Of a DNA stretch of 64,000 nucleotides, positions 3,174-18,337 are shown in pieces. Position 1 is the first letter of the stretch. Every line of letters begins with the position of its first letter. This DNA is from Amedibacillus dolichus DSM 3991. GTDB lineage: Bacteria; Bacillota_I; Bacilli_A; Erysipelotrichales; Erysipelotrichaceae. Both the position numbers and the translations under genes were made by a program. A model generated the notes under the pieces. The model searched no databases and was not told the DNA's origin. It saw only the letters and a program-made list of their open reading frames with translations. The DNA is taken from positions 186,001 to 250,000 of the forward strand of contig NZ_DS483475.1 in the NCBI RefSeq assembly GCF_000154285.1. Reading direction: 5' to 3'.

Positions 3174-6100
3174 TTCCTTTCCCACTCCATTCTCCTGATA
3201 GTATCTTGCATCTCTCTCGCAGCTTCACTTGGTTTTATAGGCCCGTTACCATTGAATGTTTGATGTACTTCGTATTTAACGGAATTATCATTCGTATTCG
3301 AAGAATACCCGCTTGCCGTATTTAAAGTATCAAAAGGTCGCATGTTTCTCATTCTAGCAGCATCTTCTAACATCTCTATAGCTTTTATATTAAAACCGGG
3401 CATTTTCTTGACTCCGTCAGACATAGTACTGATTGCAGTATCGGCAAAACGAATAATTGTTTTTTTAACAGTAGGTATGCTGTTATCTAACCCGACTGCA
3501 TATCCCTCACCTGCCATTAAACCGATTTGATCACGCCATACACGCGATGGCGAATGTGAGTCTTGCGCTCTTTTAGCACTTTCGATTGCCGAATGAATGA
3601 TATCCGCCGCTGCATTAGCGACTTTACCAACAGATCCCCATAGGCCATTCGCAAGTCCATCACCAGCTGATATACCAACACTATACATACCATCAGGAAT
3701 TTTATTCAATTCATCTTTAGTCAATTTGGCAAGTTTTTTAGCTGCATCAGCAGGTAATAGTTTACCTGAAGTTACTCCATCGGAAATTTCTTTAGGAATA
3801 GCAATACCTGCAGCATCAGCTTCAGCAACCATATCATAATATGTTACTAAATCCTTCATCTGTTCTACAGCAGCACTTGGCTGAATTTTCCCGTCAAGTA
3901 TAGCTTGGCTTAAAGATTCCGGAACCTTTATCCCTGCTGCACTGCTTTTAGCAAGTAAATCACTAAAAGTGATAAGATTATTCATTTGCTTTACTGCTTG
4001 TGATGGAACAATTTCACCACTGGTTATTCCTGCAGCAAACATACTCGGTAATACAATCCCTGCATCAGATGTTTTCTTCAGTAGGTCATCATAAGTAACT
4101 AATGACTTCATTTCTTCAACTGATTGTGGCAAAGCATATTTACCCTCAAGTATTCCACTTGCTACAGCTTGCGGTATCTTTATTCCTTGTGCTTTCGCAT
4201 TCACAATCATTTCATCTAATTGTTTTTGAATACCTGCGGAATTTAATTTCGTTTGTGCATATTTTGAAGTATCATCAAATTCTTTATTTAGACCTTTTAC
4301 CTTATTTTTATACTTATCAACAATCTCCCCGGATTCTTCATAAGCACTACGCAAGTCAGCTTCTGCATTGCTCGCTTTATAGTAAGCATCGGCTATTTCT
4401 CCATCAAAGGGTTTTCCAGCTTCTCTCCAAGCTTTTGCTGTTTTGATTGTTTCCTTCTTAGCTTCATTAAGTGCTTTTTCATTTTTAATATGTTGCTGTG
4501 TTGCTTTGTCTAATGCTATTTCAGCGCTAGCCATATCCTCAGCTATTTTTTGAAGATTTTGTTGAGCTGCTTTTGCAAGCACTAATTCTTTTTGTGCAGT
4601 AATATTCTCACGAATTGCCTCGGTAGACATATTCAATGCATCTTTCTCAGCATCATATTGAAGATTTAAATCCGGGAGTATGTTGTTCAATTCTTCAACA
4701 TAATACTTCATCATTTCTTTTTCAGCATTAGATTTATTTTCCTTATTGCTCAACTCGTCCAACTTTTGACTAAGGATATCAGCTGATTCTATTTCCGCTT
4801 GTGATGAAGCCATTGCATCTTGGCGAGCTTCTTTATTGGTTTTAAACGTTTCACTCAGTTTTTCATATTCACTGATAATCTTTTCCGTAGCAAGCACGTT
4901 GGCATTAGTTTCTTCAATAGAATCTCTTGTCGCAAAAGAATATGCGACAATACCGGCACCAACTGCAGCAATGGCAGTAACCAAAACACCAATCGGTCCG
5001 CCTAAAGCCGTACATGCTGCATTCCAAGCTGTTGTTGCTGCAGTAGCTAAAGTAACTTTTCCGGTAAGTACCCCGACCGCAGCTTGCCCCAATGTCAAAG
5101 ATCCTGCAAATTTCTTCCCTGCTGCTGTACTAGCTATTAATTTAATATTGTATAGATCAACTGCATCTTTCGCTGCCTTAAATGCTTTTACACCTTTTAA
5201 AACAGGATCGGCAATTTTCATACCAAGCATCGCTCCGCCAATTGCTCCTGCAGTAGTAACAATTTGCTTCCCATGATCTACAATAAAAGCAAATCCATCA
5301 ATAACAAGAGGTATAGCATCAGTAGCTAAATCAATCGCCACTTCCGCCATAGTGCCAAGACCATCTGCACACGTATCTAAAGATTTAGATAGCTTACCGG
5401 ATTCCATTTCTTTAGAAAGATCTTCAACTTTTTCTATGGAAGCTTGGACAGCTTTTTTCATTGGTTTTTCAAACTTCTCATATGCTTGGATTCCAAGACC
5501 CTCTAACGAACTCCCTAAAATGACAATCTGACCTTTCAAATTATCTTGCATAGTTTCTGCCATTTCTTGTGCTGCACCATCTGAATCGTTAATTGCAGAT
5601 GCTAATTTGTTAAAATCAGATTCACTAGCATTTACTATTGCAAGAAGTCCGGACATAGCTTCTTGCCCTGCTATCATAGAAGCATATTGCGTTTTTTCAG
5701 TATCTGTAAGCTTAGCGAAACTTTCTCTCATTTCAAGCAATGTCTGTTTTAATGGTTTAGCGGAACCATCTGCATTTTTAATGCTGATATTCAACACTGC
5801 CATTGCTTCCGCACATTCATCGGTTGGCTTTGCTAGACGAGTAAACATTGAACGTAAAGCGGTACCTGCTTGCTCGCCTTTAATACCTGCATTAGCCATA
5901 AGTCCTGTTGCTAAAGCTACATCTTCAATTGAATATTTTAAAGCTCCTGCAAGTGGTGCCGCATACTTAAAAGTAGCACCCATCATCGCAACATTTGTAT
6001 TAGAATTAGAAGATGCCTTAGCAAGTACATCAGCAAAATGAGCACTATCCTTTGCCTGCAATCCGAATGCGGTTAGAGCATCAGTAACAATATCTGAAAC

Positions 6101-14900: not shown

Positions 14901-16235
14901 TTACTCCTTTCGTAAAATTGGTAACATGTTTACAATGTATTTCCACAACCCCATAACAACATATCTCAACGCATCCATACAATGATCGTTTTCTTTTAAT
15001 GGTTTTTCTATTCCTCGTTCAATAGAATCAGGATCATAACCATAAATATATATTTCACTTTTCAATTCTTTTTGCTTGTTTGTGAATGATAATGCGTTAT
15101 ATATTAACAATTTTTGTACTCTGCTTATTCCTAGCTCTACTGAATTATCAACATCGGGAAATTGTATCTCCGGACATAGTCGTTTAATTTCTTCTTTCAA
15201 TCCTCTTGCTGAAGGATCAATAAAACAAAAAACAGGCTTATGCCCGTATTGCTCGTAAATACTATCTATCAAGTCTTTGAAGTCCTTCGCATACTCACTT
15301 GGACTTTTCTGCCTTCCGCTCGTTCTACCACAATGATAATACTCATCTAATCCTTGAATTCGTTTATTACTGAAGTCTAATCCAACGACTTGATATGTTG
15401 TAGGATTCATTTGTCCATAATCAACACCTACCCCATACAGTGTTATATTATCTTCACTATTGGTTTTACGTACATGGTGTTCTTCATCGAACATATAATA
15501 AATTAAATCATCAAGTCCAACCGCTTCTCCTAACCATATCCAACGATACATTTTAAAATCAGCCAATTTCATTGCTTCCGCTTCATCAATCAGCTTTCGC
15601 CCTAACCACTTCATCGGAACATCACGATAATCCGTATGAATATGAATGCAATCTGCACGCTGCTCCATCTTACGGCACCATTCATTGACAGGTGCTTTTG
15701 GATTTTTAGGCGGATTATACAGATACATCATTCTAAAATCTTCATCATTACCACGCACAAATGTTGCAACTATGTTAAGGATCTCATCCTCTCCCTCTCC
15801 TTTATCGAAAAATTCAGTAAGTTCATCTAGTACCACTAAACGTATATGATTTTTCTCATCTATCATACCTTTTGTATCATCGATGCTATCTGATCCGGTG
15901 AAATATATAGTGTTACCATTCTTTTTGTAAGTAATTTGCATCGGACTTCGAGTAATCGTGAAATGTTTTTTGGATAATCCCAAGCGCCCAATTGCACGTA
16001 CGCATTCTTGATATACTGTTTTTCGTAATTTATTATGATGCTTACGCATAATAACTGCAGCGGAGTCATCTTCTGATACAATAAGAAAATCTGCCATAAT
16101 CGCCATTGCCGAGGATTTTGTACCGGCACGACCCGATGTAAGTATTTGGTGCATGTGTTCTCGATCGTTTACCAATGGTTGAAATTTAGGAATAATAATA
16201 TCACTGAGTTTTACTGTTTTTTTATTTGATGTCAT
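14901..16235 (-). CDS. Terminase large subunit (PBSX type)
   Basis: 444 residues. The ATPase half has a Walker A variant GRAGTKSS (35-42) and Walker B LVVLDE (133-138). The nuclease half has GVDYG with Asp272, FIDPSARG with Asp340 and HCMDALRY with Asp421, the three acidic residues of the RNase H-like fold. It packages DNA through the portal. The start overlaps the small subunit by 14 bases. All key residues are present. Confidence 0.92.
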   Translation of the reverse strand: MTSNKKTVKLSDIIIPKFQPLVNDREHMHQILTSGRAGTKSSAMAIMADFLIVSEDDSAAVIMRKHHNKLRKTVYQECVRAIGRLGLSKKHFTITRSPMQITYKKNGNTIYFTGSDSIDDTKGMIDEKNHIRLVVLDELTEFFDKGEGEDEILNIVATFVRGNDEDFRMMYLYNPPKNPKAPVNEWCRKMEQRADCIHIHTDYRDVPMKWLGRKLIDEAEAMKLADFKMYRWIWLGEAVGLDDLIYYMFDEEHHVRKTNSEDNITLYGVGVDYGQMNPTTYQVVGLDFSNKRIQGLDEYYHCGRTSGRQKSPSEYAKDFKDLIDSIYEQYGHKPVFCFIDPSARGLKEEIKRLCPEIQFPDVDNSVELGISRVQKLLIYNALSFTNKQKELKSEIYIYGYDPDSIERGIEKPLKENDHCMDALRYVVMGLWKYIVNMLPILRKE

Positions 16236-17079
16236 TGATAATCACCACACCTTCATCATCCTCTTGCACACTTTCTACTTCCAACTTTTTCTTCTGTGCC
16301 TGCAACAATTCAACTTTTGCCTTTTGTTCGTCTGTAGCCCAACCGATATGATCAGCTAACCATTCAAGTGCTTTCATTCGATCTGCAAGTTTGATAGAAA
16401 CACCGTCTTTTCCTTTTTTGACTTCACTTAAGATTGTTCCGTCTACCTCATCAGACTCTTTAAATCGAACTGTATTGACCATCTTCGTTACCGGGTTACC
16501 ATCTTCCATTACAGGACCGAAAGCAGACATGACAATGGTTTCTTCTTGGCCAAATTCAATATAATCATTCAAATCCGCAAAAGCAATATCCATATACTTC
16601 TGAAAGATATCTTCCTTTGTAAGCAGATCCCTTTTACATCGCTCTTGCTTTAACTTCATGATTTCGGCTTTTATTCTATCTTTACCAAGCAGCCTAGGCC
16701 CACATGCCATTGCTACTTGATACGATACACCGTAAACCTTTTGATAAGATTTTGTAGCATTAAACGTCCTTGAATACAACAAACAAAAAAGACGCTGTTT
16801 TTCGTTTAATCCATCTGCTTCAAGCGTCTCTATATCTTCGGGGTTTAATTCATTTAAAGGCTGGATATTTATGCCTTTCTTTTGTTTGGTAACGTTACTT
16901 TTTGTTTTAGTAACATTACCTTTCAATTCTTCGTCCCATTTATCTTGTGATTTCCATTTTCTTATCTGTGTATCACTAATATTTAACTGCTCTGCTATAT
17001 CCTTCAATAAGAGCTTTCCTTTACCGGATATATAGAGTTCTTTTGCTTTATCTCTGTTTGGACTTCTTTGTCTAGGCAT
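16222..17079 (-). CDS. Terminase small subunit
   Basis: 285 residues. The first 60 residues are a helix-turn-helix (GKLLLKDIAEQLNISDTQIR, then KWKSQDKW). Residues about 90-165 form the Terminase_2 core (LNEKQRLFCLLYSRTFNATK). It recognises the packaging site. A NVTK motif is repeated at residues 55-66; its DNA contains GTAACGTTAC and GTAACATTAC sites 21 bases apart. SD AGGAGG lies upstream. Confidence 0.85.
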   Translation of the reverse strand: MPRQRSPNRDKAKELYISGKGKLLLKDIAEQLNISDTQIRKWKSQDKWDEELKGNVTKTKSNVTKQKKGINIQPLNELNPEDIETLEADGLNEKQRLFCLLYSRTFNATKSYQKVYGVSYQVAMACGPRLLGKDRIKAEIMKLKQERCKRDLLTKEDIFQKYMDIAFADLNDYIEFGQEETIVMSAFGPVMEDGNPVTKMVNTVRFKESDEVDGTILSEVKKGKDGVSIKLADRMKALEWLADHIGWATDEQKAKVELLQAQKKKLEVESVQEDDEGVVIINDIK

Positions 17080-17111
17080 TCATATCACCACCTCCTTTTT
17101 AGGTATAAGAA

Positions 17112-17131
17112 AAGCACCTCATTGGGTGCTT
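17112..17131 (-). terminator. Hairpin terminator after the accessory gene
   Basis: AAGCACC and GGTGCTT form a 7-base-pair stem on the minus strand, followed by TTCTTAT. It lies 44 bases after the 281-residue accessory gene and before the small terminase, so that gene can be an independent transcript. Confidence 0.6.
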
Positions 17132-17174: not shown

Positions 17175-18020
17175 TTAATCGTTAATAATTTCATACACCT
17201 TAGCAATATTCTGGCTTATTATTTCAGATGATTTGTTATTTTGAAGATTTGCCTCTTTATATCTAACAATCATTTTTATTTTTAATTTTGTATTATGCGC
17301 AAAATGAATTTCATTGTTATGTACTTTATTTATGAAATCCTCATCGGAAATACTGCACCATATTTTACTTCCGTTTAGGGTTACTCCCCATTTTGATTTG
17401 CCACTTAAATCAGGTTTATTCACTTTTACTACTGTTATGATTTCGTTTTCCTCAATTTCTTTATTAAATTTTTCCACATCTTGTGGTGTCGACAAGTATG
17501 ATAAGCTTTCTCTATCTAAATTTATCGTTTCTTTGGATCCTTTACCATCATCAAATTCATAAGATAGATCAGTTCTATCATGGTCATTCAAAACTGCTTT
17601 AACCGCTTCAGCCATTCCTTTCTCGACGATATTATTATATATATTTACTGTCATCGTATCTGCATAATATACATTTCCTCTTTCATTTATTATTTTAACT
17701 TTATCATCCTGTTGCTCAAATCCTTTTGGTGGTAACCCCTTTAAAAAAGTTCTAATTTTTAATATGTCTTTAAAAGCTGTTATTACAGTCGGGACATAAG
17801 GAAAAATAGTTGGTGCTAATTGTATAATCTGTTCGATATCTATTACAAAACTTCCTTTTTCGATGTTTAATACTTTAAATTTGCAAAAATCATTCTCATT
17901 AATAAGATTATCTGCAAGATTCTTTAAAGTACAAACAGTAGCGCTAAGAGAAGCAGATAATGTTTCTAAATCAATATCATTTTCTCCTCCAAAACGTATT
18001 GTTAACTTCTCAGACATCAT
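17175..18020 (-). CDS. Accessory (moron) protein of unknown function
   Basis: 281 residues from the ATG at 18020, eight bases after AGAGGGG. Residues about 50-120 read FKVLNIEKGSFVIDIEQIIQ, then a hydrophobic segment, IRTFLKGLPPKGFEQQDDK and VKIINERGNVYYADTMTVNI. I have the impression that related proteins occur as scattered accessory genes in Bacillota, but I cannot name a family. It is enclosed by terminators on both sides within the late region, the layout of a phage moron. An effect on the host or on competing phages is possible but unproven. Confidence 0.65.
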   Translation of the reverse strand: MMSEKLTIRFGGENDIDLETLSASLSATVCTLKNLADNLINENDFCKFKVLNIEKGSFVIDIEQIIQLAPTIFPYVPTVITAFKDILKIRTFLKGLPPKGFEQQDDKVKIINERGNVYYADTMTVNIYNNIVEKGMAEAVKAVLNDHDRTDLSYEFDDGKGSKETINLDRESLSYLSTPQDVEKFNKEIEENEIITVVKVNKPDLSGKSKWGVTLNGSKIWCSISDEDFINKVHNNEIHFAHNTKLKIKMIVRYKEANLQNNKSSEIISQNIAKVYEIIND

Positions 18021-18095
18021 AATAAAATCCCCTCTAAATTTACTTTTCTTTAAGAACATTTTATCACACATCCTTTCACTTTTAAATATACAACA

Positions 18096-18121
18096 TAATG
18101 TTACGATATTACGTAACATTA
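18096..18121. promoter_or_regulatory. Perfect 10-bp inverted repeat upstream of accessory gene
   Basis: TAATGTTACG and CGTAACATTA flank a 6-base spacer. It lies between the leader terminator and the accessory gene, near a TTTAAA-N17-TAAAAT promoter-like sequence. It resembles a dimeric repressor operator. Confidence 0.5.
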
Positions 18122-18129
18122 CAAAATAA

Positions 18130-18295
18130 AAAAAGCATCCTTCGATGCTTTTTACCCTAAGTTACTAACAAACATACGCTCATAAGTAACTTAGGATAAT
18201 CGCCATTTTACGATTATCCATAAATGAATTGAGAAAGTTTGATTGCAACAGGAATGTAGCGAGTGAGGGGAGGCTCTATCTCGCCACCAATTCCT
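18130..18295 (-). ncRNA. Structured late leader RNA with internal terminator
   Basis: Transcription from the late promoter would give about 165 nt. In order: a hairpin with outer GGAAT/ATTCC and inner GCGAG/CTCGC arms (about 18,250-18,294); GGATAATCG/CGATTATCC (18,194-18,219); CCTAAGTTACT/AGTAACTTAGG (18,156-18,195), which shares two bases with the one before; and the terminator at 18,131-18,153. No frame is coding here. It may be an antitermination leader or a stable small RNA. Confidence 0.5.
18131..18153 (-). terminator. Strong terminator at end of late leader
   Basis: AAAAGCATC and GATGCTTTT make a 9-base-pair stem with a 4-base loop, with T-rich tracts on both strands. It would stop transcripts from the late promoter before the accessory and terminase genes unless read through. 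Confidence 0.8.
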
Positions 18296-18301
18296 AATAT
18301 C

Positions 18302-18337
18302 ATTATATCATGTCAAGTAGGTACACCGAGGGTACAC
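18302..18337 (-). promoter_or_regulatory. Candidate late promoter with activator direct repeats
   Basis: On the minus strand an extended -10 (TGATATAAT, 18302-18310) has no good -35. Two direct repeats GTGTACC, exactly 11 bases apart (18320-18326 and 18331-18337), lie in the place of the -35. That is the expected form of an activator-dependent promoter, and the ArpU-like regulator gene ends two bases away. Confidence 0.55.

Follow-up and report, generated by a model that had tools for sequence, protein, structure and literature searches.

A Terminator Between the Late Promoter and the Late Genes of an Erysipelotrichaceae Prophage and Its Relatives: Could an Ltr-Type Regulator Also Act as an Antiterminator?

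The stretch of DNA analyzed here, called the window, comprises 64,000 nucleotides of an Erysipelotrichaceae-related genome that carries a prophage, and the locus described is the late control region of that prophage. Read on the minus strand of the window, a cluster of small early genes ends with the gene for a small basic regulator, which is followed by a promoter, a gene for a protein with a LAPAL motif, the genes for the small (terS) and large (terL) terminase subunits, and the head genes. The features are collected in Table 1, in which the start of the LAPAL-motif gene (near 18020) is placed where the family alignment begins. Elsewhere in the window, the host's gene for RNase P RNA (bacterial, class B) is found at 50603-50264.

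Table 1. Genes and predicted elements of the prophage late control region, in window coordinates.
Feature	Coordinates	Strand	Basis or remark
ArpU/Ltr-like late regulator, 163 aa	18340..18831	-	PHROG 36 match, predicted model
Operator, GTGTACC twice 11 bp apart, also 15-bp dyad GTACCC-TCG-GTGTAC (18335-18321)	18320..18337	-	
Extended -10 TGATATAAT	18302..18310	-	
Second -10-like block GATATTAG (family consensus GRTAnnnT)	18294..18301	-	overlaps predicted start
Leader hairpin 1, begins at predicted +1	18250..18295	-	folding, hairpin-energy peak, arm-swap test
Leader hairpin 2 (GGATAATCG/CGATTATCC)	18194..18219	-	
Leader hairpin 3 (CCTAAGTTACT/AGTAACTTAGG)	18156..18195	-	overlaps hairpin 2 by two bases
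Intrinsic terminator 1 (stem AAAAAGCATC/GATGCTTTTT), leader end	18128..18153	-	
10-bp palindrome (TAATGTTACG/CGTAACATTA)	18094..18123	-	directly 3' of terminator 1, before LAPAL gene
LAPAL-motif putative phage structural protein	17175..18020	-	first gene past leader; NCBIfam NF053583 1.5e-39; PHROG 3243 2.1e-27
Intrinsic terminator 2	17105..17131	-	~30 nt ahead of terS start
Terminase small subunit (terS)	16222..17079	-	Pfam Terminase_2 2.2e-38; PHROG 2606 1.6e-102
Terminase large subunit	14901..16235	-	Pfam Terminase_3 4.2e-24

The regulator has a pI of 8.3, which rises to 9.5 for the portion from residue 97 to the end. Its match to PHROG 36 ("transcriptional regulator") is weak (E 3.6e-6, 27.7 bits), and the protein scan returned no Pfam match, no above-cut-off NCBIfam match, and no match to ArpU (TIGR01637). 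The predicted model (pLDDT 83.6) combines an N-terminal helical hairpin with a C-terminal helix-turn-helix (HTH) domain that resembles sigma region 4. Residues ~97-160 superpose on region 4 of SigD (3vfz) over 62 residues at 1.4 A, and the C-terminal domain superposes on region 4 of SigR over 63 residues at 1.8 A, although the Foldseek E-values for these matches are weak. Sigma region 4 was listed in the structure search, and no Q or AlpA chain was among the matches listed. An earlier sequence-only reading had placed the late promoter beside an ArpU-like activator gene, and this can be upheld to the extent of the weak PHROG 36 match and the sigma-region-4-like fold. As modeled, such a domain would suit a protein that replaces a missing -35 contact.

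The relatives used for comparison are homologues with 27-44% identity from genomes of the family and from viral contigs, along with more distant ArpU/RinA-like relatives from the phylum, for which searches with TIGR01637 and PHROG 36 were noisy (sigma factors, low scores). Set B consists of hand-picked top matches with intact open reading frames, and its statistics include loci of presumed phage context. The only near relative is a viral contig whose regulator is 99% identical, and therefore it is of no use for covariation. DNA and protein searches found no similarity to isolated phages, and the DNA matches in other genomes span the terminator hairpin only.

The GTGTACC repeats that had been noted 11 bases apart before an extended -10 are indeed present on the minus strand, at 18337-18331 and 18326-18320. 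The exact arrangement GTGTACC-N4-GTGTACC occurs once in the whole window, in which 0.9 occurrences with up to three mismatches are expected by chance. When 16 family loci were aligned on the -10, a dyad was found with its center at a fixed distance from that element (mean arm match 0.59 vs. 0.25, sd 0.08), and the perfect 11-bp direct repeat was found in the window only. Because the relatives share the dyad at the same place, a dyad is the better description of the predicted operator, and the direct repeats were set aside as the main operator. By analogy, the regulator would be expected to bind this candidate site.

The -10 is located +28/29 nt past the regulator stop codon, a distance that is fixed across the window family, and the position of the extended -10 predicts a +1 at about A18295, in agreement with the sequence-only reading. 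The hexamer TTGACA (18316-18311) abuts the extended -10 upstream, as TTGAC(A/G) does in most late promoters of the family (TTGACRTGnTATAATG). It was ruled out as a -35 element by its spacing of 3 bp to the -10. The family consensus beginning at the -10 is TATAATGRTAnnnTGGAA, which includes a second -10-like block whose copy in the window lacks the final T. The bases +3/+4 after the -10 are TA in all 20 family promoters (19 identified by script, plus the true site of L012) compared with 9.4% and 4.8% in control promoters taken from these sequences, a count that overstates independence given the shared ancestry of these promoters. The operator and leader around this block have diverged from one family promoter to another, and two of the 20 promoters (L124 and L130) follow a different regulator. 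Judged from its sequence, the block is a possible sigma-dependent pause element.

Transcription from the predicted start would produce an RNA extending from 18295 to ~18128 (~168 nt), with four hairpins including the terminator. Both the sequence and its folding confirm the earlier description of a predicted ~165-nt transcript that carries three inverted repeats and a terminator before any gene. Taken as 166 nt, the leader RNA folds at -58.2 kcal/mol, compared with -34.3 +/- 3.9 kcal/mol for dinucleotide shuffles (z -6.15), and none of 200 shuffles folds as well. No sense-strand open reading frame of at least 50 aa starts inside the leader, and a scan of the window and the leaders yielded no Rfam match in the late region.

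The comparison of pairing across relatives concerns hairpin 1, since for hairpins 2 and 3 no relative of intermediate distance was found. With the predicted start set from the -10 alone, hairpin energy in the core family peaks sharply at offsets +1/+2 (approximately -10 kcal/mol) over a background mostly between 0 and -4 kcal/mol, and it rises again near +56. In an arm-swap test, the first 13 nt of each leader were paired with nt 21-56 of either its own leader or another one, and own pairs were stronger (z -4.6 for 13 loci; 0 of 20,000 permutations as strong). A z of -4.9 resulted from adding five more loci, which include some that resemble one another. This result indicates that the pairing of hairpin 1 is kept while its sequence changes, and the conservation of hairpin pairs anticipated by the sequence-only reading thus holds for this hairpin. 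Beyond the promoter block, only the position and the pairing of hairpin 1 are conserved, not its sequence. The hairpin is absent in L020, and it is unconvincing in L016, L022, 80alpha, and A118. It would probably protect the RNA end or help in handling the start site, a role that is suggested here only tentatively.

Some leaders of relatives contain additional elements. An RNA element of ~94 nt, named R1, is present between hairpin 1 and the terminator (L118:1937-2030 (+); also in L011, L012, L014, L015, L120, L124, L130, and L131). It is formed by a GC hairpin and by another stem, inside which is a hairpin whose 7-nt loop (UGCAASU) is like the T loop of tRNA. In its alignment 97.7% of cells are paired, and seven pairs have changed on both sides; R1 has no Rfam match, and its strong matches within the family come from one genus only. 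The leader terminators of L118, L120, L124, L130, L011, and L022 hold a large conserved internal loop that goes beyond the needs of a plain terminator (consensus AAGCACGnAGAACYGCCCAnGATAAGGGRTACRGGAGAAAACGTGCTTTT). In L124 and L130, the same promoter block and leader (hairpin 1, R1, and terminator) are found behind a different-looking regulator, and so leader and regulator may be swapped as separate modules.

The terminator at the end of the leader, which had been proposed from the window alone, recurs in place among the relatives. In 12 of 15 loci of the window family, a terminator on the sense strand with an energy of at least -8 kcal/mol in strength was found 30-300 nt past the regulator stop. 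The other loci gave 25 of 37, and the total with two named phages included is 39 of 54, with some script picks being 5' or other hairpins (e.g., L008 at +85) and the counts not corrected by hand. Flank windows of equal length have a terminator in about 13-15% of cases (P <1 in 20,000 by simulation). This count proves little by itself because terminators are more frequent between genes than in coding flanks. The telling point is the position of the terminator relative to the late promoter, not its frequency. All terminator strengths are computed values.

In most relatives, the order is repeats, extended -10, short leader, terminator, and then the ribosome site of the first late gene. The leaders range from ~45 to >200 nt, and many are ~45-55 nt long and contain little besides the terminator hairpin. 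In ~17 loci, the U-tract is only 20-35 nt ahead of the first late start codon, and among these no good -10 was found between U-tract and start codon except in L044. Thus, polymerase that starts at the late promoter must pass the terminator. In the window, where the U-tract of terminator 1 is at ~18134-18128, late transcription must cross both terminators ahead of terS. The LAPAL-motif gene occupies the space between them. A118 has gp68 and MM1 has ORF28-29 in the corresponding space, and this suggests an insertion place for extra genes. A weak promoter-like site is present 5' of the LAPAL-motif gene (18086-18058), and a separate promoter for this gene is possible (-10 near 18063-18058).

Proteins of the Ltr superfamily are known as late activators. 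The order of regulator, promoter, and terminator is also found in phi11 and 80alpha after rinA and in A118 after gp66, and the same late-region order exists in phi13 after ltr, in TP901-1 after alt, and in r1t. MM1 is a weak example in that the -10 and the terminator annotated ahead of terS almost overlap. Between regulator and terS, A118 and MM1 have two terminators, as the window does. The Ltr systems (RinA of phi11/80alpha, LtrC of phi13, Alt of TP901-1, and A118 gp66) share with the window a small basic regulator, whose gene is directly 5' of its own repeat-containing late promoter and before the terminase genes, and a terminator between the promoter and the first late gene. There are also differences. 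For the window regulator, the one profile match is the weak one to PHROG 36, and its operator consists of one short dyad or repeat, whereas the named phages have several repeats of 9-18 bp. In addition, the window family has a compensatory-paired 5'-terminal hairpin, and the window has a gene between its two terminators. The second -10-like block is absent from phi13 and TP901-1. In TP901-1, two tRNA-like genes (tRNA-Lys and tRNA-Ala; L117:3135-3209, 3289-3376) are part of the late leader, 3' of the late promoter and ahead of terS.

The most likely mechanism behind these features, for which confidence and doubt weigh about equally, is that the Ltr regulator both starts late transcription and carries polymerase past the terminators in the manner of Q or AlpA. 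As expected for the Ltr family, the regulator would bind the operator at the would-be -35 position and activate a promoter limited to an extended -10. Polymerase would then make the ~168-nt leader with its 5'-terminal hairpin and, according to sequence and folding, would halt at 18153-18128. Expression of the terminase, head, and tail genes would entail that polymerase crosses terminator 1 and the second one before terS. The regulator might load at the promoter, helped by the second -10-like element at the start site, and then stay with polymerase and suppress termination. Lacking the regulator, stray initiation would give rise to the short leader RNA only, and thus the late genes would be locked twice. 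A protein-based device is preferred because an RNA antiterminator would not fit into the ~45-55-nt leaders of many relatives and because polymerase has two terminators to pass.

Promoters regulated by Q or AlpA require a -10-like element near the start site and a promoter DNA site for the factor, and they have a downstream terminator (PMC9371919, PMC6606751); all three kinds of element can be recognized in the sequences of the window family. The lambdoid Q system, with its pR'-tR' region, further resembles the window in having the regulator gene beside the late promoter and a short leader that ends in a terminator before the late genes. The window regulator, in contrast, has no sequence similarity to Q and, among the structure matches listed, no fold similarity to it. 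Furthermore, unlike Q promoters, Ltr promoters lack a recognizable -35 and need the regulator for initiation, and antitermination at them is a proposal. AlpA of Pseudomonas aeruginosa shares with the window a promoter site, a C-terminal HTH, and a terminator just past the promoter, and its control of lysis genes is a further likeness (PMC9371919). It differs in that its site lies between -35 and -10 and its -10-like sequence at -1 to +5, a few bases downstream of the second -10-like block of the window (about -4 to +2), and no homology was detected. The literature searched, with Ferrer 2011 and Quiles-Puchalt 2013 lying outside the search, contained no report of antitermination by Ltr, RinA, or Q-like proteins in Gram-positive phages. 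The extension of this proposal to the superfamily, in which RinA, ArpU, LtrC, Alt, and the window regulator would all, besides being activators, be processive antiterminators of the Q/AlpA type and the promoter-proximal terminator would be general, is held with somewhat more doubt than confidence.

The main rival to antitermination by the regulator is that of a plain activator combined with a leaky insulator. The regulator would raise initiation only, the terminator would shield the late genes of the lysogen, and polymerase would leak through upon induction. This explanation is on the unlikely side. In its favor, Ltr proteins are described as activators, and PMC5754349, which credits Ferrer 2011 with showing that staphylococcal phages have a conserved terminator at the equivalent place, suggests possible insulation. 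The terminator of staphylococcal phages was therefore already known, and what is new is its generality and its mechanistic meaning. In phi13, the start site TSS23 has been mapped, the TATA box and Ltr are required for late expression, and the late promoter P23 is essential for the late genes, with P23 mutants losing late expression (PMC13123087). As read from the coordinates in this analysis, TSS23/P23 is upstream of the phi13 terminator. A P23 reporter depends on Ltr even though its fragment ends ~50 nt past the start (PMC13123087), which by our estimate is about where the U-tract begins. Thus, Ltr acts on initiation in that construct, and termination is outside the reach of the reporter. Against a leaky insulator, such an element would be expected upstream, but in the window and its relatives the terminator is downstream, at the expense of the late promoter's own output, and the window, A118, and MM1 each have two terminators between regulator and terS.

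Explanations that assign the main role to the RNA itself are less likely than either regulator antitermination or a leaky insulator. The sequence-only reading had likened the leader to the put RNA of HK022, which belongs to early transcripts and needs no phage protein (PMC11658703); in that case, the leader hairpins would themselves make polymerase resistant to terminators. The two systems are alike in having a structured leader near the promoter with terminators after it, and the strong fold of the leader, the location of hairpin 1 at +1 with its pairing kept by compensatory change, and the presence of R1 as a further conserved element in some relatives all fit. Even so, this explanation is improbable. 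The window differs from HK022 in its adjacent activator gene, one relative (L020) lacks the 5' hairpin, no Rfam match was found, and the many related leaders of only ~45-55 nt lack the hairpins and leave no room for them, so that a put-type RNA cannot be the common device. A promoter-loaded protein of the Q/AlpA type fits better. It is more improbable still that the leader is a functional small RNA of late infection. A discrete predicted start, a terminator, and strong folding would be consistent with such a function, and IsrK of Gifsy-1 is a comparable prophage leader RNA (PMC4825925). However, past the promoter block conservation is limited to where hairpin 1 lies and how it pairs, leader length varies widely, and the earlier suggestion of a stable small RNA gained nothing from the analysis. 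Finally, it is very improbable that the terminator merely ends the early transcript and that late genes start from promoters downstream, for which the weak site 5' of the LAPAL-motif gene could be cited, given the lack of room for a promoter between terminator and ribosome site in ~17 loci and the loss of late expression in the phi13 P23 mutants.

In a large share of the phages of Gram-positive bacteria, packaging and lysis are governed by Ltr-type late regulators, and through these phages so is the transfer of pathogenicity islands. If terminators are generally present past Ltr-type late promoters, then the picture of simple activation would be incomplete, and reporter fusions that end before the terminator would measure something different from those that end after it. 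The idea that such regulators also act as antiterminators could be put to trial in established laboratory phages with a few reporter constructs.
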